Shown: in pieces, positions 15,224-26,333 of the stretch
Layout: each line of letters opens with the position of its first letter
Numbering within the stretch: position 1 is the first letter of the stretch
Source: Pseudomonadota bacterium
GTDB lineage: Bacteria > Myxococcota_A > UBA9160 > SZUA-336
Direction of reading: 5' to 3'
DNA: 64,000 bases
Assembly (NCBI GenBank): GCA_003247575.1
Contig: QJZC01000034.1
Coordinates: forward strand, 1-64,000
Notes under the pieces: model-generated
The model's input: only the letters and a program-made list of their open reading frames with translations
Told to the model about the DNA's origin: nothing
Database searches by the model: none
Made by a program: the position numbers and the translations under genes

Positions 15224-15799
15224 ATGATCGATGCAGCCCGCCCTAGCCTGAACCGTCCGGCGCGCCTGTCGCAGGATCAGCACATGTGCTTCAGCCTTGC
15301 CGGCGAGTGGTATGGCGTGGAGCTTCCGCGAATCCGAAGCGTGCAGCCGTGGACTGCACCGACTTTGATCGAAGGCGCGCCCGACTACGTTCCCGGGATC
15401 GCACGGCTGGGCACGACCCGAGGACCCCTCGTAGACCTACGGATCCGCTTTGGCCTGCCACCCGCCGCGTACGGAAGGTCTACGGTAGTCGCGGTAATGC
15501 GAGTCAGCCTTCCGGGAGATTCGCAGTCGCGTACCTTGGGGCTGATCGTCGATTCGGTTTCCGATATCCAGACCGTCTCCGAGTCCGCCATCATTCCCCC
15601 ACCGGCGCACTTCTCAGGGATCGACCTGAGCTTCGTGCGTGGAGTAGCACCACTACGCGAACGCATGCTGATCCTACTCTGTATCGATCGGATCCTGAGC
15701 TACGAGGAACTTCGACCCGTCTTCTGCGCTGCCGAAGCGAGCCATGAAACGCCCCACCGGAGTGTCGTCTCCTCGGCGTACCGCCCGTACCACTCCTGA
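15224..15799 (+). CDS. CheW-like domain protein
   Basis: CFSLAGEWYGVELPRIRSVQPW...VPGIARLGTTRGPLVDLRIRFGL...GLIVDSVSDIQTV. Confidence 0.8.
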   Translation: MIDAARPSLNRPARLSQDQHMCFSLAGEWYGVELPRIRSVQPWTAPTLIEGAPDYVPGIARLGTTRGPLVDLRIRFGLPPAAYGRSTVVAVMRVSLPGDSQSRTLGLIVDSVSDIQTVSESAIIPPPAHFSGIDLSFVRGVAPLRERMLILLCIDRILSYEELRPVFCAAEASHETPHRSVVSSAYRPYHS

Positions 15800-17833
15800 A
15801 ACCCCAACGTGATAGTTGTGGCAGGTCAAGCAGCTGTCCCCGGCGGCTTCCGGTGTATGGCATCCTGCGCAGGTTTCCTTGGTCATGGCGAAGAAGTCTC
15901 CCTCCTTGGGCGTCTCTCCACCGAGCTCGCTTACATGACAGGAACCACATCCATCCAGGCCCGGCTGCAGCAAGTGGGGGCGGTGGAAGTAGCGAGTGAA
16001 GCTTCTCTCCTCCAGATCGCGGCGCTTCGGCTGCCAGTTGATTCGAGCGAATCCTGAGCCGTGAGCTGCGTCTTCGCTGCGGTCGGGAGCTCCCTCCGAA
16101 TCCGATCGCGCCTCCTTGGTGTGGCATTCGATACAGCGGCCGGCTGAGTCTGGCTGCGCGATCTGATCGATGAGGCTCGCGAGCGACGGATCTCGCGCTG
16201 CCCCTTCGATGACCACATCGAGCCAGCTCTTCAGAAACGGATCCGCGTGTCCCGACGGCCTATAGCGAAGTGCAAACGTGGAGTCGTCACGATACCAGCC
16301 CCCCATCGCGCTATCCGTCGGTGGATCGAGCTCGTCGAGCGAGATCAGACGGGTCGCGACCGGCTCCCCCGCAGCGCGGCGTTCGACTTCTTCCATCAGG
16401 CTGGGAAACCAGGCGCGTTGCGCCGCGACCAGAGTGTCCGTACTCAGATTGGCTGCCAAGAACGAGATCTCTCGCGAAGAGAGCTTACGTTCGAGCGAGC
16501 GCTCCAATCTTTCACAAAGGACGCGCAATCCATCCGCAGGATTCTGAGAGGCCAGAGCGTAGAAGAGATCCTTGATCGCCCAGACGACGTCCGCCTGCTC
16601 TGCTCCATCGAGGTCGTACAGATACTCCATCTCGTCGACCTCGGCTGCATGCTCGAGGTCCGCCGAGGCGCGAACCAGAAGACGCATGAATCCACCGAGC
16701 GGCTCGTCGTGGTCCATGCCCGCTAGCTCGGGCCACTCCCCAATCTCGAGGTCCACCACCGCATCGGTGTCGATCGCAGGGAGCTGCAGGACCGCGACAC
16801 CAGATGGAACGTCTCCAACTCCGAAGGGCTCCGGCGGCGGCCCCGCGTACGCGCCCGCGACGTGGCATTCTCCGCAGGCCGCCTCGAAGCCGCGAATGCG
16901 CATCGACTCCCCCAGTCGATCGAGCTCGTGGCAGCCGGCGCAGTCGAACTCGCGATCTGAAAAGTGCTGCTGCTGGTGCTCCTGGTGACTGAAGGCGATT
17001 CGCGTACCCGAAGTCTGATAAGGCCAGTCCGTGAATTCTGGATGCCCTCCGCCGAGTGAGGCAAACGTCTCGCGGTGACATCCCTGACAAGCATCGTCCG
17101 CCAGCCGTTCGAGATCGAACTGCGCCCCGTGATGCTCGCGATGGCACGTCGCACAAGCAATGTCCCCAGACGCCGAATGGGGAACCTCTAGACGGGCACC
17201 TCGCGACCCGCTCGCGACGTCCAAGCGGACGAATCTAGCTGGATCGGCCGAGTGCGCCTTCGCTGCATGCTCCGCGAAGCCCGGACTCTCCCGGTGGCAC
17301 TCCAAGCAGAGCGCGGTCTGCGTTTTTTGCTCCGAGGCCGCCATCGACAACCATCCGAGTGCATTCTCCGCACCGGCCGCGTGGCACGTTCCGCAGGTGT
17401 CGCCGTTGTCGGATTCGAGAATCTGAGCATGGTTCAGACTGAGTGGGCCCGGCGAGAGCAGCCGCGTCCGCGCACTCCCACCGAGCAGGAGCAGCAGTCC
17501 CCCGAAGGTAGCAGCCGCCGCCATCCAGCCGACGAACCGGCGCCTCGAACGATGACTCCGCACCGGCTGGCACGGAGGAATGCGAATGCAGCAGGCACCG
17601 TCAGGCAGCGGCCCACGCTCACAGCGCCCTCCTTGGGGTCCGGAGCGGGTGCACTCGTAGCGATCACCGACCCGTCGTGGCGCGCAGGCATACTCCCCTA
17701 CACACCGGCCGCTTGCATCTGGTCCGCGGGCGCAACGTCGAGACTTGCCCGAACGAGCACAGACCCATTCCAGGGTCGGCCTCTCGTAGGTACTCTGATC
17801 GTGCGAGAACTTCTGAAGCTCCAGCTTGCTCAC
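15674..17833 (-). CDS. Decaheme c-type cytochrome with cytoplasmic Cys-rich N-terminus and one TM
   Basis: 10 CxxCH: CGTCH CLECH CATCH CQGCH CAGCH CGECH CIECH CGSCH CAGCH CLTCH; Cys-rich residues 1-100, then FVGWMAAAATFGGLLLLLGG. Confidence 0.88.
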   Translation of the reverse strand: MSKLELQKFSHDQSTYERPTLEWVCARSGKSRRCARGPDASGRCVGEYACAPRRVGDRYECTRSGPQGGRCERGPLPDGACCIRIPPCQPVRSHRSRRRFVGWMAAAATFGGLLLLLGGSARTRLLSPGPLSLNHAQILESDNGDTCGTCHAAGAENALGWLSMAASEQKTQTALCLECHRESPGFAEHAAKAHSADPARFVRLDVASGSRGARLEVPHSASGDIACATCHREHHGAQFDLERLADDACQGCHRETFASLGGGHPEFTDWPYQTSGTRIAFSHQEHQQQHFSDREFDCAGCHELDRLGESMRIRGFEAACGECHVAGAYAGPPPEPFGVGDVPSGVAVLQLPAIDTDAVVDLEIGEWPELAGMDHDEPLGGFMRLLVRASADLEHAAEVDEMEYLYDLDGAEQADVVWAIKDLFYALASQNPADGLRVLCERLERSLERKLSSREISFLAANLSTDTLVAAQRAWFPSLMEEVERRAAGEPVATRLISLDELDPPTDSAMGGWYRDDSTFALRYRPSGHADPFLKSWLDVVIEGAARDPSLASLIDQIAQPDSAGRCIECHTKEARSDSEGAPDRSEDAAHGSGFARINWQPKRRDLEERSFTRYFHRPHLLQPGLDGCGSCHVSELGGETPKEGDFFAMTKETCAGCHTPEAAGDSCLTCHNYHVGVSGVVRAVRRGDDTPVGRFMARFGSAEDGSKFLVAQDPIDTE

Positions 17834-18681
17834 AGGGTCCGTCCTCCAAAGCTCAGTGCGAGCACGGCATGCAGAGAGGCCAGCAACAACAAGCTTCCAA
17901 CGAGCGCTGAATGCAGGAAGAGCCACCCCTTGAGCACGAGCTGATGTGCATACTGGTAATCGAGCTCATCCTTCTTCTCGATCAGCTCGACGAGTTCGTC
18001 CGCAACCTCGCGCTGACTCGCAGACAGGTACCGGGAGAGCTCATCGAGCTCACTACGCAGCCCGAGCATGGGCGCGCGAGATTGAGCAAGATGACCGAGC
18101 AGGTTGCTCGCGCGGGAAAAATAGGGTGCGAGTCGGTCGGTGAAGTAGCCGGACAGCACCCCGTCGGCTGATACCGCTCCGGGCTGGAGTACGAGCGCAC
18201 GACTTCGTTCGAACAACTCCATACGGAAATCTCCGATTCGCTCGAAGATGACCTCTTCGCCGCGAGCAGAGATTCGTGCCGGAATCCGACGCGTGATCGC
18301 GAGCCCGACGACTCCTGTTCCTGCCACGCAGACATAGACGATGGCTACTGCCCGCTCCAACCATCCATCGGGGAAGCGCCACGCGAGTGTAGGCAAGAAG
18401 AACCCATGCACGACAAACAAGAGCGCCGAGAGCAGACCCACGTATGCGTGCCAGCGCAGCCATGTGGCAGTCCTACCCAAGGGAAGCACGGCAATCCTCT
18501 TCCGAACCCCGTAGAACGCCAAAAGCAGCACGCAACCGAAGAGAAGCGACCCCGTCCACACGGTCGCCGACCACAGGGATCGCAGCATGACCCACGCCCC
18601 CACGAGGGAAGCCACACCCAGGGCTGCACTGACGAGTAGAGCGCGGCGATCCCGACTGAATCGATCTATTCGCGTAGCCAT
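17830..18681 (-). CDS. Membrane b-type cytochrome-like protein (ferric reductase/NOX-like bis-His)
   Basis: Two helices each with H-x13-H (HAYVGLLSALLFVVH; HSALVGSLLLLASLH). Confidence 0.65.
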   Translation of the reverse strand: MATRIDRFSRDRRALLVSAALGVASLVGAWVMLRSLWSATVWTGSLLFGCVLLLAFYGVRKRIAVLPLGRTATWLRWHAYVGLLSALLFVVHGFFLPTLAWRFPDGWLERAVAIVYVCVAGTGVVGLAITRRIPARISARGEEVIFERIGDFRMELFERSRALVLQPGAVSADGVLSGYFTDRLAPYFSRASNLLGHLAQSRAPMLGLRSELDELSRYLSASQREVADELVELIEKKDELDYQYAHQLVLKGWLFLHSALVGSLLLLASLHAVLALSFGGRTL

Positions 18682-20354
18682 GCCGTCAACTCTTTCGGGT
18701 CTTGGAGGTCCACTCGGGCGAGCGCATCGTATGGGCACGCACGCACACAGGCCGGTCCACCCACGTGGTCCAGGCAGAGATCGCACTTGGTCGCCTTCTG
18801 GAGTGGCTCATGCGTCGCGTCGTCCCGGATGAAGGCGCCGCTCGAGTCTCGGATCTCGACCATGCGGATGTTGCTGTATGGGCAGCTCGCAGCGCAGGTA
18901 CCACAGCCCACACACGTGGGATCGTTGATCCACACGGTGCCGCTCGATGGCTCTCGCTGAATGGCTCCCGTCGGACAGCCGATCATGCAGACGGGATCGA
19001 CACAGTGCATGCATGAGTTGGCGACCATCTTCCGATCGAAGATGGGGCCGTGCCGAATGAACCTCGGATTTCCGTCATGTGCCACGGCGCATGCGCGCAC
19101 GCACTCGTCGCAGCGCGTACAGCGATCGACGTCGATCACCATCGTCGCAGTTCCGTTGATGAATCGGTTGGCCGAAACGAAGCCGAGTCGGGCACTCGCT
19201 AGCGATTCCTCGACGGAAGACAGTGTCGCCCAGCTGGCACTGCCAGAGCGGTTGCGCGGCTTGGGAACCCGCTCCAGATCGATGGCAGGCAAGATGTACT
19301 TCTCGGCGACCGGCGTCGGGATGTGCAGCACGTCGACATACCCGACCGCGCGCAGCGAACACGCATACGGGACCGCCTCCTTCTCCTTCCAGTTGTGAGC
19401 CAGCTCCTCCAGTCCGTAGATCTGCCCACGCCCCAGATAGCTCAGTGTCCGCTCGCCGTGCCCCAGACTCTCCGTCAGGCGTGCGAAGCCCGATCGCACC
19501 AGGGTGAGCCCGCTCGGATAGTGCCCCTGCTCGGCAATGATGGGTTCGCGCGCCAGGCGCTCATCCGGCTCGGAGTCGGGCGTCGCTCGGAACTTCGAGG
19601 TCCATTCAAATTCTCCGTAGGTTCGAAACTCCGTAGCCGCGGCTACGGCTTCGACCACTTCCGGCGACAGATCTTCCAAGTACCGAGTCGCTGCGATCTG
19701 TTCTCGAAGCCCCGTCTCTCGATAGCGACGCAATACGTAAGCGCGAAACTCCGACGTGAACCGCAGCAAGTCCCGCAGCCCTTGCCAGCGGATCTCCAGC
19801 AGTTCGCTGTCCGTCTCCGCCACGACCGTGGCACTTCTCGGTGCTCTCGTGAGAGCCGCCATCTCACCGAATATCTCACCAGAACCGATCCTCGCCTGGG
19901 AGTCGTCGCAGAGAACGCGCGGGAAGTCCTGAATGAAGATCGGTGCACCTGCGGGACTCCGGGACCTTCCCGCGCGAATGAGACTGTCCGAACTACGCAC
20001 TTCGGGATAGGCACGGCGTCTATAGGCGTGGCGAAGGGTCTCGAAGATACTTCGCCGCCGCGGCACGCGGCGGCCGAGTACCTCGTCTGGGAGAGCAAGC
20101 GCAACACATAGAGCCCCATCCAGCACCAGGAAGGCGGAGCTTCCGTACTCCTGCTCGCGGACGACGATGTCCCCCCGCCGAAAGGACACGAACCGAGTAT
20201 CGTTGCGAAGGATGTCCGCCAAAGGCGTCGATCTCGGAAATTGCCCTGGATCCATGCTGGCGAATGGCTCTATCTGGAGCAGCCTCTGGACGTCCGACTC
20301 CTCGAGCTCAGGATCGAACGGCACGTCCCAACGGCTGGGTCTACTCTGTTTCAT
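18666..20354 (-). CDS. Tandem cyclic-nucleotide-binding domains fused to a four-[4Fe-4S] HybA/DmsB-like ferredoxin domain
   Basis: cNMP-like GEIFGEMAALTRAPRSATV; CTRCDECVRAC, CMHCVDPVCMIGCP, CVGCGTCAASCP, CDLCLDHVGGPACVRACP. Confidence 0.88.
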   Translation of the reverse strand: MKQSRPSRWDVPFDPELEESDVQRLLQIEPFASMDPGQFPRSTPLADILRNDTRFVSFRRGDIVVREQEYGSSAFLVLDGALCVALALPDEVLGRRVPRRRSIFETLRHAYRRRAYPEVRSSDSLIRAGRSRSPAGAPIFIQDFPRVLCDDSQARIGSGEIFGEMAALTRAPRSATVVAETDSELLEIRWQGLRDLLRFTSEFRAYVLRRYRETGLREQIAATRYLEDLSPEVVEAVAAATEFRTYGEFEWTSKFRATPDSEPDERLAREPIIAEQGHYPSGLTLVRSGFARLTESLGHGERTLSYLGRGQIYGLEELAHNWKEKEAVPYACSLRAVGYVDVLHIPTPVAEKYILPAIDLERVPKPRNRSGSASWATLSSVEESLASARLGFVSANRFINGTATMVIDVDRCTRCDECVRACAVAHDGNPRFIRHGPIFDRKMVANSCMHCVDPVCMIGCPTGAIQREPSSGTVWINDPTCVGCGTCAASCPYSNIRMVEIRDSSGAFIRDDATHEPLQKATKCDLCLDHVGGPACVRACPYDALARVDLQDPKELTAWLRE

Positions 20355-20356
20355 GG

Positions 20357-21619
20357 CTATGCATCCAACGTCAAGGGGCCATCAGGAACGCAGATGCACG
20401 TCAGGCACGATCCGCGTTCCGGCTTGTAGCTGGGGGTGCGAACGTATTGCACCTTTCCGCTCTTGATGGCTGTCTCGCACTCTCCGCAGTTGCCACTCCT
20501 GCAGCCAGAGCTCAGGGGAACTCCGAGCGATTCGCCGAACTCGAGGAGACTCCCATGATCGCCGGTCCACTTCTCGCTGCGTCCAGACCGGCTGAACTCG
20601 ATGGGGACCGCGTCGGTAGCGGGAGTCTCTACCACGCGCTTCACGGTCGCAGGACCGAACGCTTCGAAGTGGACTCGTTCCTCGGGCACTCCCCACTTGT
20701 CGAGCGCTTCCGTGAGCGAGCTCATCATGGGGGGTGGACCACATAGATAGAAGTCATAGTTGTTCGACGGCAGGTTCTTCCGCAGGATGTCGAGAGACAG
20801 GAAGCCTTCGACCTGATAGTCCTTCCCGTGCACGTCTTCGGGAAGGGGCTTCGCATAGCAGACGAGCAGATGGACGTTCTCGTGTGCTGCGGCGAGCGCC
20901 TCGAGATGAGCTTTCATGACATGGTCGGATCGATTCGTCACTCCCAGAAAGAACCACGTTTCGCGGTTCGATCCGGACTCCGTGACGGCCAGCAGCATGC
21001 TGAGCAAGGGCGTCAAGCCGATCCCACCTGCGATGAGCACCACCGGATCGTCCCTGGTCATGTCCAGATAGAATTCTCCGCTCGGCGCCTTGACGTCGAG
21101 GATGTCTCCCTGCGAGACGCAGTCGTTCACATAGCTGGAGCTCAGCCCGGGTGGGACCTCGGGCTGCCCTCGAGGGGGCCCGATCTTCTTGACGGTGATT
21201 CGATAGTGATCGTCCTGCGGCCGATCCGATAACGAGTAGCATCGGACGACGCGCCGTTCCCGGCCGGGAACGCGAAAGGCGAACGTCAAGAACTGACCCG
21301 GATAGAAAGGCGCCAGCGGCCTATTGTCGTGGGGCGCCAGATACAGAGAGGTCACGTTCTGACACTCCCGCTCCACCCGCTCCACCTCGAACTTCCGATA
21401 GCCTTCCCAGGCGTGTTCGAGCGGCACCAACCGCTGAAAGCGTCGATGCTCGGCATCCAGTTCGCGGCGCAGCAGCTCCAGCTCGAGCTGCTGCTGCTTG
21501 CGCCCCCCTCTCAGTCTCGCGAGCGAGGCGGCCGCCTGCACAGCGACGATCAGCAACACTCCAATCGAGATCAGAGCGCCCAATGTCCACGCGAACCACT
21601 CGAAGATCTGAACGGTCAT
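20357..21619 (-). CDS. Membrane-anchored FAD/NAD(P)H oxidoreductase with C-terminal plant-type [2Fe-2S] ferredoxin (NqrF-like layout)
   Basis: N-terminal TM; RCYSLSDRP (FAD), GGIGLTPLLSML (NAD), SGCRSGNCGECE...CLTC (2Fe-2S). Confidence 0.88.
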   Translation of the reverse strand: MTVQIFEWFAWTLGALISIGVLLIVAVQAAASLARLRGGRKQQQLELELLRRELDAEHRRFQRLVPLEHAWEGYRKFEVERVERECQNVTSLYLAPHDNRPLAPFYPGQFLTFAFRVPGRERRVVRCYSLSDRPQDDHYRITVKKIGPPRGQPEVPPGLSSSYVNDCVSQGDILDVKAPSGEFYLDMTRDDPVVLIAGGIGLTPLLSMLLAVTESGSNRETWFFLGVTNRSDHVMKAHLEALAAAHENVHLLVCYAKPLPEDVHGKDYQVEGFLSLDILRKNLPSNNYDFYLCGPPPMMSSLTEALDKWGVPEERVHFEAFGPATVKRVVETPATDAVPIEFSRSGRSEKWTGDHGSLLEFGESLGVPLSSGCRSGNCGECETAIKSGKVQYVRTPSYKPERGSCLTCICVPDGPLTLDA

Positions 21620-21634
21620 GACTTTGCTCCGTAC

Positions 21635-22804
21635 CTACCGAGCCTTGTCGAATGGATCGCCCTTGGCCTCACCCGGAATCAGAGCATCGAGCGCGCCAAG
21701 AGAGCTGCCATCGTACGAGTCCGCCACTGCGCGTGCAGCCGAGCCCGCCTTGTCTGCAAGCCCCTTCGGCAGCGGTGAATCCACACTCAGGGATTCGGGG
21801 ATCGCCTGCACGATCTCAGCCAGCCCTGGCACCGCTACCGCCTTTCCGACTTGGGCAAGCCTCTGCCTGAGCCGAAGTACACGCTCCACCATCGCCTCGT
21901 GATAGACACCGCCCGCCTCCTTGATCGCCTCGAGGTTGCGCGCACTGTACTCGAGGTCGACCAGAGCCCCGACGAGGAACAGCTGCCGCAGGCGCTCCGG
22001 CGGAGCCGGCTGATTGGTGCTCGCGTCCGGAGCTCCCGGAGAGCTGAGGAAGTTGTGGCGAACCTCTCCCTGCGACCAGCTGGCCAACTCGAACTCGGAT
22101 CCAGGCTTGTGATCGCCCTTGTTGACGAGCTGCTCACGGGGGACGGTGTGACAGCCTACGCAATTGCTCGCTAGCGCGTACAACATCCCAGGGTGGATCA
22201 TGCCCTTCTTCTGTGCTGCTTCGATCCGCTTTGCTCGCTGCTCGGAGGAGCTCTTGCGCCCCTCACCCCACTTCAGGACATCACCGGCAGGATCGCCGGA
22301 GATCCGGTTGTGTACATCGACCCATCCGCGAGCGGGCGAATGACAGGATTCGCACGACACGCCCCACTTGACCGAGATCCGATCCTTGCGAGCTGGCTTG
22401 GTGCCCGCAGCTACGTCGACAGCTCCGGATCCCTCTGGTGCGATCGGGGTATAGTGGCACTGGCGGCACTCCGAGGACCTCTTCATACTACGCTCGCCGA
22501 GATTCGAGAGAATCTCCTTCGCGCGATCCGAGCGATGACGCTCCTTGAAGGTCGCAAAGTGCTGGCTCTGCGCCCAAGCGTCGTATTCGAGCGTGTGACA
22601 TTCCTTGCAGTTGTTCTCGCTCTTTCCGCTCTCGTCCGGACCCAGCACCCTCGAGGCCCACTCGAGCTCTTCGGCCTCGCTCAGAAGCGCCTTTGGCTTC
22701 GGGGCATCCTCGGCGAGAGCGACTTCAGGTGCTGCGACGGCAACGACTGTCGTAGCCAGGTAGAGGGTCAGTGCAACGCGCGCTCGTGTGGAATCGGAAA
22801 TCAT
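21635..22804 (-). CDS. Tetraheme c-type cytochrome (c554-like)
   Basis: Signal peptide; CKECH CRQCH CESCH CVGCH. Confidence 0.85.
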   Translation of the reverse strand: MISDSTRARVALTLYLATTVVAVAAPEVALAEDAPKPKALLSEAEELEWASRVLGPDESGKSENNCKECHTLEYDAWAQSQHFATFKERHRSDRAKEILSNLGERSMKRSSECRQCHYTPIAPEGSGAVDVAAGTKPARKDRISVKWGVSCESCHSPARGWVDVHNRISGDPAGDVLKWGEGRKSSSEQRAKRIEAAQKKGMIHPGMLYALASNCVGCHTVPREQLVNKGDHKPGSEFELASWSQGEVRHNFLSSPGAPDASTNQPAPPERLRQLFLVGALVDLEYSARNLEAIKEAGGVYHEAMVERVLRLRQRLAQVGKAVAVPGLAEIVQAIPESLSVDSPLPKGLADKAGSAARAVADSYDGSSLGALDALIPGEAKGDPFDKAR

Positions 22805-22838
22805 TCGTACTCTCCCTAATCCTTCGGAGTGTGAACCT

Positions 22839-24284
22839 TCAGAATGCATATCGAAGCTCCATGCGAGATCCAAAACCCGGGGAATCGGACTGGACAAGCG
22901 ACCCAAACAGGTCGAACTGCAGTTCCCAGTGACTGCCGACCGCCTGTTGGTATCTCACGGCCAATGCGATCGCTCCGGGTGCAGCGTCGTTGTCGGTTCC
23001 CTTCCGCCCACCCAGCTCGAAGACGAGCTGCTTGCGGAAGGTGTCGAGGAACATCTGGTAGCCGATGGCAAAGCCGACGGACTGAGTGGCGTCGTTGGGA
23101 AGCGCAGTGTCGTAGCGACCCAGCTCGAGAGAAGCGAACAGGATCCCGAGTTCTCCCAGCGGACCACCGACTTCTGGACCTCGAGCCGCAGACGTGAACT
23201 CATCGATGCCCCAGAAGAGATTGACATACAGATTGTCCTCGGAATAAGGAAGGACCGTCGTCGTCTGCAAGAAGAGCAGCATCCCATCGCTCAGAACTGC
23301 GGATTCGTCGTCGAGTGCGCGCGACCCGAGCAAGTGGATGTCCGAGCTGACGAGCCCAATGCGCTGAGACGCAGAGAATGCCCAGTACACGCCGTCTCCA
23401 CCTCCAAACTTCGCGGGATCCTCGTCTGTGTCGTCTACATAGACAAACTCGGCATTGATGCTCGTACGCGCATAGTCGGCCGCGGCGAAGAGGCCGTACA
23501 GCCGGAGGTCATCGACTTCGCGGTTGTTGAAGCCGTTGTTTCCTCGATGAATTTCGTCCCACGCGAAAACAGCCGTGAGCTGGAGATTGGTGCCCCCGGC
23601 AGGCGCCGCCAGGTTGTTCCGCGTGATCCCGATCGCGTCGAGTGTATCGTTGATGAGAAGCCCGTCCTGGATGGAGAGGTACTGCCGTCCGATCGCGAAC
23701 CCGATATCGAGCGCAGCGTAGTCGCCAGGGTCGAGCGCAGGGATCAGCTCTGCGAGCTCGCCCTCGAAGAACGCCGTGGTAACATCCAGGTTGGCTTCTT
23801 CCTCGAAACCACGTCGATTGCCGCGCTCGTCGCGCCGCGGATTCAGGTTGAAGACCGTGAACCGGCCATCATCGCGACGATGCAGTGGCTGGAGGCCGAG
23901 AGTGAAGCGTTCCGTACCCGTGAGGAGTACATCCGCATAGAGATCGAGGCGAGTAGCGATCTCCGACAACGAGTCCTCTCCGGTGTCGAAGACCTGAAGA
24001 GCGGTTCGCGAGGTCCCGGAGATCAGTAGCGACGGCTGCCATACCGCACCACCGGGGAGCCGGATTCCCTGACGGATGACTCCTGGACTGAGAAATCCCG
24101 CGCCGGCCTCGAATCTCTTCGGACGTTCGGGCACCACCGCCGGATCGATCTCACTGACCGATTCGTCGGCCAGCTCGCTGCTGTGCTCCCCAACTCGCGC
24201 GAAGTCCGCACGGACCGGAGCCGCGGCGGCAGCAAACGTGAAGCTCAGAGTCCATGCCAACAGTGCGCGTGAGCGATGGATCAT
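22839..24284 (-). CDS. Outer-membrane beta-barrel protein/porin
   Basis: Signal peptide, alternating amphipathic strands, C-terminal SRMELRYAF. Confidence 0.75.
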   Translation of the reverse strand: MIHRSRALLAWTLSFTFAAAAAPVRADFARVGEHSSELADESVSEIDPAVVPERPKRFEAGAGFLSPGVIRQGIRLPGGAVWQPSLLISGTSRTALQVFDTGEDSLSEIATRLDLYADVLLTGTERFTLGLQPLHRRDDGRFTVFNLNPRRDERGNRRGFEEEANLDVTTAFFEGELAELIPALDPGDYAALDIGFAIGRQYLSIQDGLLINDTLDAIGITRNNLAAPAGGTNLQLTAVFAWDEIHRGNNGFNNREVDDLRLYGLFAAADYARTSINAEFVYVDDTDEDPAKFGGGDGVYWAFSASQRIGLVSSDIHLLGSRALDDESAVLSDGMLLFLQTTTVLPYSEDNLYVNLFWGIDEFTSAARGPEVGGPLGELGILFASLELGRYDTALPNDATQSVGFAIGYQMFLDTFRKQLVFELGGRKGTDNDAAPGAIALAVRYQQAVGSHWELQFDLFGSLVQSDSPGFGSRMELRYAF

Positions 24285-24395
24285 TTCGCTCCTCCTGGAT
24301 CTAGAACAGCACGATGCACGCGGCGTCGGCCGATTTGTTCGAACCGTTTGACTTCACTTCGGAGCGGATCGGATCGAATGCCATCCGCTCGCGCA

Positions 24396-26333
24396 CTATT
24401 CGGACGCGTACTGCGGGCCATCCGTCCTGCGTCCCAGCTCGGCCTGTCTCTCGAAGAGAACCTGGTGCCCGACGACGCGGTTGTCGTCCGGATCCTCGGA
24501 GTCGGGATCCCAGAGAATCACCTCTCCCTGCTCATCGACGAAGCCATGCACCAGGGTCTTCGCGATCTCGCGAGCACTGAGTCCATAGTCGAAGCCAACG
24601 ATCTGGATCGCGTTCACCAAGTGCACGGGGACCATGGCCGCCTTCAGCTTCACCGAGACGCGGTAGGGAGCACGGCCCGTGAGCTGCTCGCGCGGGACCT
24701 CGTAGGCTGCCCAACGCTCGGCGCCGGTGGGAATCCCCTTGCGATGCCTGCGCGCCTCGCCCGCCTGCCCCTGCAGGATCGACGAGGATCGGGCCTTCTG
24801 CAGGAAGGGGCGCGCCCTGACTCCGTAGGGAACCGGAATGATCTGGTCTACCTCGGCCCCGCGCAGCGGTCGGATGAGAAACTTGGACTGCAGGTTGAAC
24901 AGCTGATCGTCCAGCGCGAGCTCGCGATTGTGCACGTATCTCGAGTGGGAATCTCGCAGATCGCCGTTGGGATCGAGATCACCCGACTCGAAGACGAGCT
25001 TGCCATCGAGGTCGGTCACCCGCACGTGGAGCCAGACGAGTCGCTCGGCGTCGTCGCCGCTCGGTACGCTGTGCGCGCTCGTGATGTTGCGAACTCGAAT
25101 CCGGAAGCCGAGCGACTCGGAGTCGGGCTCGTCCTCGATCACCTCTCCTAGCTCGTATCCGTTTCGGAGTAGCCTGAGGCGCAGATCGCGCATCTCCCGG
25201 AGCGCGCGCAGGTTCTCTACGAGGAGTTCGCGGGCCTCGTAGCGAGAGTCGACGTCAGCCCAACGCTCCGGAAACTGATCCTCGTCGGGTTCGAGGTCCT
25301 CGAACGCATCCGTGCCCCAGCCAGCGCGCCAATCGAAGGCGAGCCACTCCGAGATCGTCGCGAGCCCCCCGGTTTCCGAGCGATCCTCGGGCTCCTCCTC
25401 CCGGATCGCTTCCATGTTGAACGGGAAGAGCGCCGGATGAATCACCGAGTAGTCGGGACCCGGGAAGCGATGGTCCGTGAGCTTCCGCGGCGGCGTCTCC
25501 AGCGACCCGAGCAGCGCTGCGGGTCCGAAGTCGTAGTTCTTGCGATCGAAGTCAGGGGCGCTCGGATCTGCCATCACCTTGCCGGGCTCGCGACCCATGT
25601 GACAATCCTGGCAATCGATGCCACGCTCCGCTGCTGGAGATCGCTTCCACTCGCTGAAGACCTCCTGGAGGCGGATCCCGTCGACCCCTGTCAGATCATG
25701 ACACGTCGCGCAGAACCCAGATGTGGACAGCGCGAAGAAGGGCTTCACCTCGGCATGTACACGACGACCGGGGCGCTCCGAATTCGTCACGAGTCCTCCC
25801 TCGCGAATGGCCTCGTCGAGTGCGCGGTTGTCCCCGGTCGGCCCATAGATCGGACTGGTGAGATCCCCCCGCTGCAACGCAAAGCGAGCGCCGAGCTTTC
25901 CGTACTCTTCCGACTGGCGGTGGCAGGAGACGCACGTAACCCCTTCGCGAGAGGTCGAGTGGCGACTGGCGTTGGCTGCAAACACCGGCTCACCGATGCT
26001 CATCCCGACCGGCGTGTGACAGCGGATGCAGAAGTCCCCCAAGGTCCCATTGGTCAGCTTTCCGAGCGCTCCCTGCATGGCATTGAAGATGGGGCTCAGC
26101 TGGGCGTAGGCGTGCTGGGAGCGCGACCATTGCTCGAATTGCCTCGGGTGACACGAAGCGCACTCCCTGGCCGATGGGAGGCTGTCTGCGCCCATGACGT
26201 TCTCGTGCATCGAGTTGACGTCAGACAAGGAAGTCTCGGATGCAGCACCCGAAGTCGCGAACAGGAGGCTCCATGCAAGGACTGGCGCCACGACGCGGAG
26301 CAGTGAGAGATTCACGAGGATTCCTCCTATCAC
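24396..26333 (-). CDS. Pentaheme c-type cytochrome
   Basis: Signal peptide; CASCH CIRCH CVSCH CATCH CQDCH. Confidence 0.88.
   Translation of the reverse strand: MIGGILVNLSLLRVVAPVLAWSLLFATSGAASETSLSDVNSMHENVMGADSLPSARECASCHPRQFEQWSRSQHAYAQLSPIFNAMQGALGKLTNGTLGDFCIRCHTPVGMSIGEPVFAANASRHSTSREGVTCVSCHRQSEEYGKLGARFALQRGDLTSPIYGPTGDNRALDEAIREGGLVTNSERPGRRVHAEVKPFFALSTSGFCATCHDLTGVDGIRLQEVFSEWKRSPAAERGIDCQDCHMGREPGKVMADPSAPDFDRKNYDFGPAALLGSLETPPRKLTDHRFPGPDYSVIHPALFPFNMEAIREEEPEDRSETGGLATISEWLAFDWRAGWGTDAFEDLEPDEDQFPERWADVDSRYEARELLVENLRALREMRDLRLRLLRNGYELGEVIEDEPDSESLGFRIRVRNITSAHSVPSGDDAERLVWLHVRVTDLDGKLVFESGDLDPNGDLRDSHSRYVHNRELALDDQLFNLQSKFLIRPLRGAEVDQIIPVPYGVRARPFLQKARSSSILQGQAGEARRHRKGIPTGAERWAAYEVPREQLTGRAPYRVSVKLKAAMVPVHLVNAIQIVGFDYGLSAREIAKTLVHGFVDEQGEVILWDPDSEDPDDNRVVGHQVLFERQAELGRRTDGPQYASE

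Follow-up and report, generated by a model that had tools for sequence, protein, structure and literature searches.

A PCC4-type gene cluster with a cyclic-nucleotide-binding Fe-S protein, a candidate NAD(P)H-driven electron conduit

Described porin-cytochrome systems and the operon of the window

PCC4 was predicted from genomes by He et al. 2017 (Front Microbiol 8:1584, PMC5566968) as a possible iron-oxidation system, in which electrons would pass from an extracellular donor to quinone. It comprises a porin, cytochromes with 4, 5 and 10 haems and a membrane protein carrying WX3HX13H on TM3 and TM5 and SGXXG on TM4; in subgroup II, a pfam13247 Fe-S gene stands just upstream of the membrane protein gene and a further redox gene is present (PMC5566968). 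PCC4 was reported from Alpha-, Gamma- and Zetaproteobacteria and from Planctomycetes (PMC5566968). No experimental test of it was found in the open literature searched, and two later papers on iron-oxidation systems do not discuss it. MtrCAB, MtoAB and PioAB also combine a porin, multihaem cytochromes and a periplasmic relay. The known inner-membrane entry points of extracellular electron transfer are quinol oxidases, CymA being that of Mtr (PMC6295460), and the inner-membrane haem proteins CbcL/MtrH/MtoC and ImcH, which feed extracellular electron transfer, are quinol oxidases too.

In the window, that is the whole stretch of 64,000 nucleotides analysed here, seven genes form an operon on the minus strand (26315-15674). 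All seven open reading frames lie where the initial annotation had placed them, and their common strand and short gaps (114, 34, 15, 2, -16 and -4 bp with refined starts) bear out its description of co-directional, tightly packed genes. The likely starts are GTG at 26315 for the pentaheme cytochrome A5 (AGGAGG upstream), ATG at 22804 for the tetraheme cytochrome B4, ATG at 18681 for the membrane protein and GTG at 17833 for the decaheme cytochrome C10; they are slightly off the ORF calls, which run from 26333 to 15674. A5, B4 and C10 hold 5, 4 and 10 CxxCH motifs, 19 in total, as the annotation had counted. Since shuffles of the same proteins yielded almost none (means of 0.0005, 0.003 and 0.05, respectively), these counts are above chance. 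Elsewhere in the window, a RoxA-like di-haem cytochrome c (PF21419; 4846-6990, minus strand) is possibly a rubber oxygenase-type dioxygenase.

By comparing the operon with PCC4 subgroup II, we found the porin gene (22839-24284, with an 18-strand model), the 4-, 5- and 10-haem cytochromes, and a membrane protein with two WX3HX13H motifs and SGXXG in the form TGVVG. Also, the next gene upstream of the membrane protein gene encodes a protein matching PF13247 (E = 5.6e-10). One feature differs: in PCC4 subgroup II the redox gene lies upstream of the tetraheme gene, whereas the window has the reverse, tetraheme then reductase. The published order is kept in most seven-gene relatives, and that of the window reads as a local swap with no gene missing, gene order being descriptive of PCC4 and not defining. 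Judged by these features, the operon belongs to PCC4 subgroup II. Because the gene set matches feature by feature save for this order, we rejected a novel gene set, and the initial annotation was wrong to suggest that the gene content was new. It had also named exact synteny with a characterised pathway as a ground against the conduit; since PCC4 is a prediction only, the synteny found is no such ground. The Verrucomicrobia porin-multihaem clusters (He et al. mSphere 2017, PMC5615132) differ from the operon, with an 8-haem cytochrome and a porin of at least 20 strands, and no matching features were found in the Tenderia undecaheme system (PMC5371394).

Five points go beyond the PCC4 prediction and are new here: a cyclic-nucleotide-binding (CNB) domain, adjacent cyclases, an NAD(P)H-type input, the co-occurrence of the pentaheme cytochrome and an 18-strand barrel model. 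The main text of the PCC4 paper holds 0 mentions of a cyclic-nucleotide domain (PMC5566968). On balance, we lean towards the operon encoding a conduit that would carry electrons outward, driven by NAD(P)H and controlled by a cyclic nucleotide. PCC4 would thereby gain a different and testable reading, with NAD(P)H as the donor and control by a second messenger.

Electron carriers between NAD(P)H and the periplasm

By scanning GTDB genomes for the protein that joins the CNB and Fe-S parts (the cNMP protein), we found at least 543 confirmed loci and analysed the best 80. Of these best 80, 76 have the genes for the cNMP protein, the membrane protein and C10 side by side in one locus; the reductase gene is present in 72, the 16-Cys Fe-S protein in all 80, and all seven genes in 17. 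Going by record labels, which can be wrong for MAGs, the seven-gene loci belong to Planctomycetota, Verrucomicrobiota, SAR324, Nitrospinota, Elusimicrobiota and Pseudomonadota, and the core (about 80 loci) bears eight labels: Planctomycetota, Verrucomicrobiota, Myxococcota, Nitrospinota, Elusimicrobiota, SAR324, Poribacteria and Pseudomonadota. The redox motifs of every component, including those for FAD, NAD and 2Fe-2S, are conserved across about 80 loci. Complete chromosomes are available for Planctomycetales bacterium ZRK34 and Candidatus Uabimicrobium amorphum, which might make these two accessible to experiments. When 45 cNMP proteins were placed in a tree, that of the window fell in a well supported clade of 13 (99/99) whose other members are all from Planctomycetota, and that of G022, a genome of the same class as the window, grouped with Myxococcota; these positions suggest that the window's operon was probably acquired sideways. 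The close grouping of G022 with Myxococcota records also suggests that the host, being of its class, may belong to Myxococcota.

The reductase gene (20357..21619, minus strand) encodes a predicted membrane-anchored NAD(P)H-flavin-[2Fe-2S] reductase with a TM segment followed by FAD (PF00970), NAD (PF00175) and Fer2 (PF00111) domains in this order. In NqrF, the Fer2 domain stands ahead of the FAD domain. Here Fer2 lies at 354-412, past the NAD domain, an order shared with PaaE/Hcr-type reductases, so we rejected an NqrF identity and corrected the label "NqrF-like" that the protein had first received. The motifs RCYSLS and GGIGLTP and four Fe-S Cys are conserved across relatives, and the FAD-NAD-Fer2 order points to NAD(P)H, not quinol, as the probable substrate. 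The next gene (18666..20354, minus strand) encodes the predicted cytoplasmic cNMP protein (PF00027, PF13247), in which two CNB repeats are followed by four [4Fe-4S] clusters, the 16 Cys being invariant (100%).

The membrane protein (17830..18681, minus strand) has five predicted helices. Its motifs are W109-H113-H127 and W288-H292-H306, with TGVVG at 157-161 (S in 76/80 aligned); both WX3HX13H motifs are present in 78/80 aligned relatives and in 0/20000 shuffles, and the four His are kept in 98-100% of relatives. The initial description as a bis-His membrane protein was correct, and the two motifs mark it as a predicted di-haem cytochrome b. Its relatives give weak DUF4405 and Ferric_reduct matches, and searching it against PDB sequences returned no credible match.

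Further out, C10 (15674..17833, minus strand) is predicted to consist of an eight-Cys N-terminal domain, one TM helix and then ten periplasmic haems. The eight-Cys domain, which about 90% of relatives retain, spans about residues 47-129 of the ORF (15674-17926) and matches no Pfam family; because a positively charged stretch adjoins the TM helix, it is probably cytoplasmic, and it may be a metal or cluster holder, possibly a new domain. The 3' end of the decaheme gene overlaps tail to tail with that of a gene for a CheW-like protein (PF01584; 15224-15799, plus strand). B4 (21635..22804, minus strand) is a predicted periplasmic, c554-like tetraheme cytochrome c, in which the alignment of relatives reveals exactly four other invariant His, as distal ligands 4/4. 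Unlike in CbcL/MtrH/MtoC and ImcH, the b-type protein and the decaheme of the window are separate genes, and they come with an NAD(P)H reductase and an Fe-S relay.

From these parts, we infer that NAD(P)H would reduce the membrane-anchored flavin/[2Fe-2S] reductase, which would pass electrons to the four [4Fe-4S] clusters of the cNMP protein and on to the two b-haems of the five-helix membrane protein. The TM-anchored C10 and then B4 would receive them in the periplasm, and A5 with the barrel at the outer membrane would hand them to an acceptor located at the outer membrane or beyond it. Since the reductase and the Fe-S protein are conserved, NAD(P)H would be the natural donor. Electrons flowing outward from NAD(P)H would move down the redox scale and with the membrane potential. 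However, the window's genome encodes four haem-copper oxidases, so an extracellular acceptor is not evidently needed, which counts against an outward gated conduit.

The same parts could work in either direction. An extracellular donor, e.g. Fe(II) or Mn(II), might instead reduce the pentaheme/porin pair, B4 and C10, with the b-type protein delivering electrons to quinone or NAD(P)+. He et al. 2017 proposed this inward direction, which also counts against our reading; PCC4 occurs in marine iron-oxidising Zetaproteobacteria and in Hyphomicrobium, and the b-type protein resembles quinone-active cytochromes b (PMC5566968). However, a reductase kept in 72/80 loci and a 16-Cys Fe-S protein kept in 80/80 would be unnecessary for quinone delivery and point to NAD(P)H. 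Moreover, to reach NAD(P)+ from Fe(II), electrons would have to climb in potential and also move against the membrane potential, and the operon encodes no coupling device; the host, too, is without any mark of an iron oxidiser. We regard inward flow as rather improbable.

The pentaheme cytochrome and the outer-membrane barrel

A5 (24396..26315, minus strand; 645-aa ORF, 639 aa from the likely start, which has a Shine-Dalgarno sequence) is a predicted secreted pentaheme cytochrome c (PF13435) with a c554-like haem part and a C-terminal beta-sandwich domain. Its family profile matches the penta-heme cytochrome c552 of Thermochromatium tepidum (PDB 5ze8) with an E-value of 5.5e-16, and 5ze8 is also the sole strong fold match (E = 2e-8) of its AF2 model (pLDDT 69.5), which makes the two homologues by both profile and fold. 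The adjacent gene (22839..24284, minus strand) encodes a 481-aa protein modelled as an outer-membrane beta-barrel (AF2 pLDDT 76) of 18 strands by our own count of DSSP elements, and no Pfam family was matched in 17 members examined. Foldseek gave its best fold matches to Campylobacter MOMP, chitoporin, AlgE and Occ porins; most of the TM-scores were 0.5-0.7.

With its 26 strands, MtrB is larger, and a decaheme cytochrome plugs it. It appeared neither in the PDB sequence search nor among the 50 best PDB folds of the window's barrel, and C10 is TM-anchored with an eight-Cys N-terminal domain; on these grounds, we rejected membership of the Mtr, Mto or Pio systems. No plug is visible in the barrel model. 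Because an 18-strand barrel is smaller than MtrB and the known conduits, the outer-membrane step appears the least certain part of the conduit, and the porin-like fold without a plug counts against our reading.

With such a barrel, the system might be a periplasmic one, in which NAD(P)H would supply the periplasmic cytochromes, A5 would reduce a periplasmic substrate that enters through a solute porin and no electrons would cross the outer membrane. The porin-type folds fit this, A5 is without a lipobox or outer anchor, and a pentaheme of c554 size would be unlikely to fit in 18 strands as MtrA does in MtrB. On the other hand, A5 has seven conserved non-CxxCH His for its five haems, with no obvious vacant haem of the enzyme type, and the barrel, which fits no porin family by sequence, adjoins A5 wherever looked at. 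We consider a purely periplasmic role doubtful. For the outward conduit, the pentaheme may cap the barrel instead of filling it, or work in the periplasm.

Pentaheme and barrel genes missing from a locus usually stand side by side elsewhere in the genome, the pentaheme adjoining the barrel in 5/5 unlinked cases looked at. To relate them to the core, we used a spread of 249 Planctomycetota genomes. The pentaheme was found in 21/22 genomes that have a close homologue of the cNMP protein (E <= 1e-120, a threshold set after viewing the list) and in 15/227 without one (Fisher p about 1e-19, kinship ignored); in all 40 cNMP-positive genomes, it was found in 26 (p about 1e-17). The window's own phylum (284 genomes) has the cNMP protein in 5, the pentaheme in 8 and both in 3. 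Also, a genome labelled Myxococcota (G294) holds two pentaheme-barrel pairs (L134, L135) away from its reductase-cNMP-membrane-decaheme operon, one of them followed by a tetraheme gene.

For the stretch between NAD(P)H and the periplasm, the trans-envelope conduit first proposed thus has good support in the conserved redox centres, the synteny and the co-occurrence of pentaheme and barrel with the core; its crossing of the outer membrane is left in doubt by the predicted 18 strands and the solute-porin-like fold.

Four Limisphaerales loci (L059:14442-20765, L084, L085, L043) have the same inner-membrane core with an unrelated porin-like protein of ~750 residues (c8) and a ~1300-residue decaheme with LVIVD repeats (c9). 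We tried c8 as a homologue of the window's barrel and detected none (hhalign probability 0.5%). A porin-like protein with a very large decaheme is as expected of an outer-membrane conduit and speaks against a purely periplasmic system; the outer-membrane part would be modular and swapped between lineages, on a widespread core. In the ghost-rock group 1 porin-cytochrome clusters of a 2026 cave metagenome (PMC13264449), a ferredoxin-NADP reductase lies near a porin and a multihaem cytochrome, as in these Limisphaerales relatives; in those clusters the decaheme is large (4-5 kb) and the porin has ~20 strands, whereas the window has a pentaheme and an 18-strand barrel.

The cyclic-nucleotide-binding domain and neighbouring cyclases

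Outward flow through the b-haems would conserve no energy and waste reducing power, from which we infer a gate, and the CNB domain is the obvious one: binding of a cyclic nucleotide would permit or halt the Fe-S relay. The phosphate-binding cassette (FGE...PRxA(T/S)) is intact in the window protein (FGEMAALTRAPRSAT). In the first repeat, its Glu is kept in 84/84 and its Arg in 81/84 aligned proteins, and this repeat is an intact predicted cyclic-nucleotide site. In the PDB, the CNB part is best matched by PKG and the PKA regulatory subunit, and the Fe-S part matches HycB3.

The CNB domain might be a scaffold only, in a system without cyclic-nucleotide control. In support of this, the second repeat has lost the cassette, Gln replaces the cassette Arg in a more distant subfamily (L011/L012), and in that subfamily regulation may fall to FHA domains. 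However, the first repeat is conserved as described, the best matches of the CNB part are real cGMP/cAMP-binding domains, and Planctomycetota loci, as well as L033 with its differently built cyclase, have a cyclase gene beside the operon. A mere scaffold therefore seems unlikely to us.

First, the reductase gene stands at the head of the cluster, with its upstream side in view, in 18 Planctomycetota loci (our own count), and 14 of these have a class III cyclase gene transcribed divergently from it, at a distance of -13 to 382 bp (28-382 bp, with one overlapping by 13 bp). The cNMP proteins of these 14 loci have a median identity of 51%, and two Asp and one Arg are invariant in the cyclases. 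In class III cyclases, these two Asp bind metal and the Arg is catalytic. Second, a 7TMR-DISM cyclase gene lies directly upstream of the pentaheme gene in L033. Third, nine Limisphaerales-type loci have a cyclase 0.9-3.6 kb downstream (of CHASE2 type in L057), which may be unrelated to the operon. No cyclase gene stands next to the window's own operon, in a genome with about 12 cyclases, and this counts against gating.

We tentatively extend the gated outward conduit to a widespread class, possible though somewhat doubtful as yet, in which a cyclic nucleotide would switch the conduit at the protein level by binding to a CNB domain fused to the four-cluster ferredoxin that would supply the inner-membrane cytochrome b, with a cyclase beside it in some lineages. 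If true, a second messenger would gate an electron wire directly and not its transcription, of which we know no earlier case; searching the literature for cyclic-nucleotide binding together with multihaem or decaheme returned nothing relevant.

L011 and L012, from the same class as the window and more distant, retain the cNMP-type cluster. In L012, a pyridine-nucleotide oxidoreductase (FAD/NAD) fused to FHA and 2Fe-2S (Fer2) domains (L012:4431-6812) replaces the FNR-type reductase, and a separate FHA protein is encoded in the cluster (L012:12904-13503). Because these FHA proteins stand in a cNMP-type cluster, their presence suggests that signalling control may be a general feature of such clusters, with exchangeable sensors.
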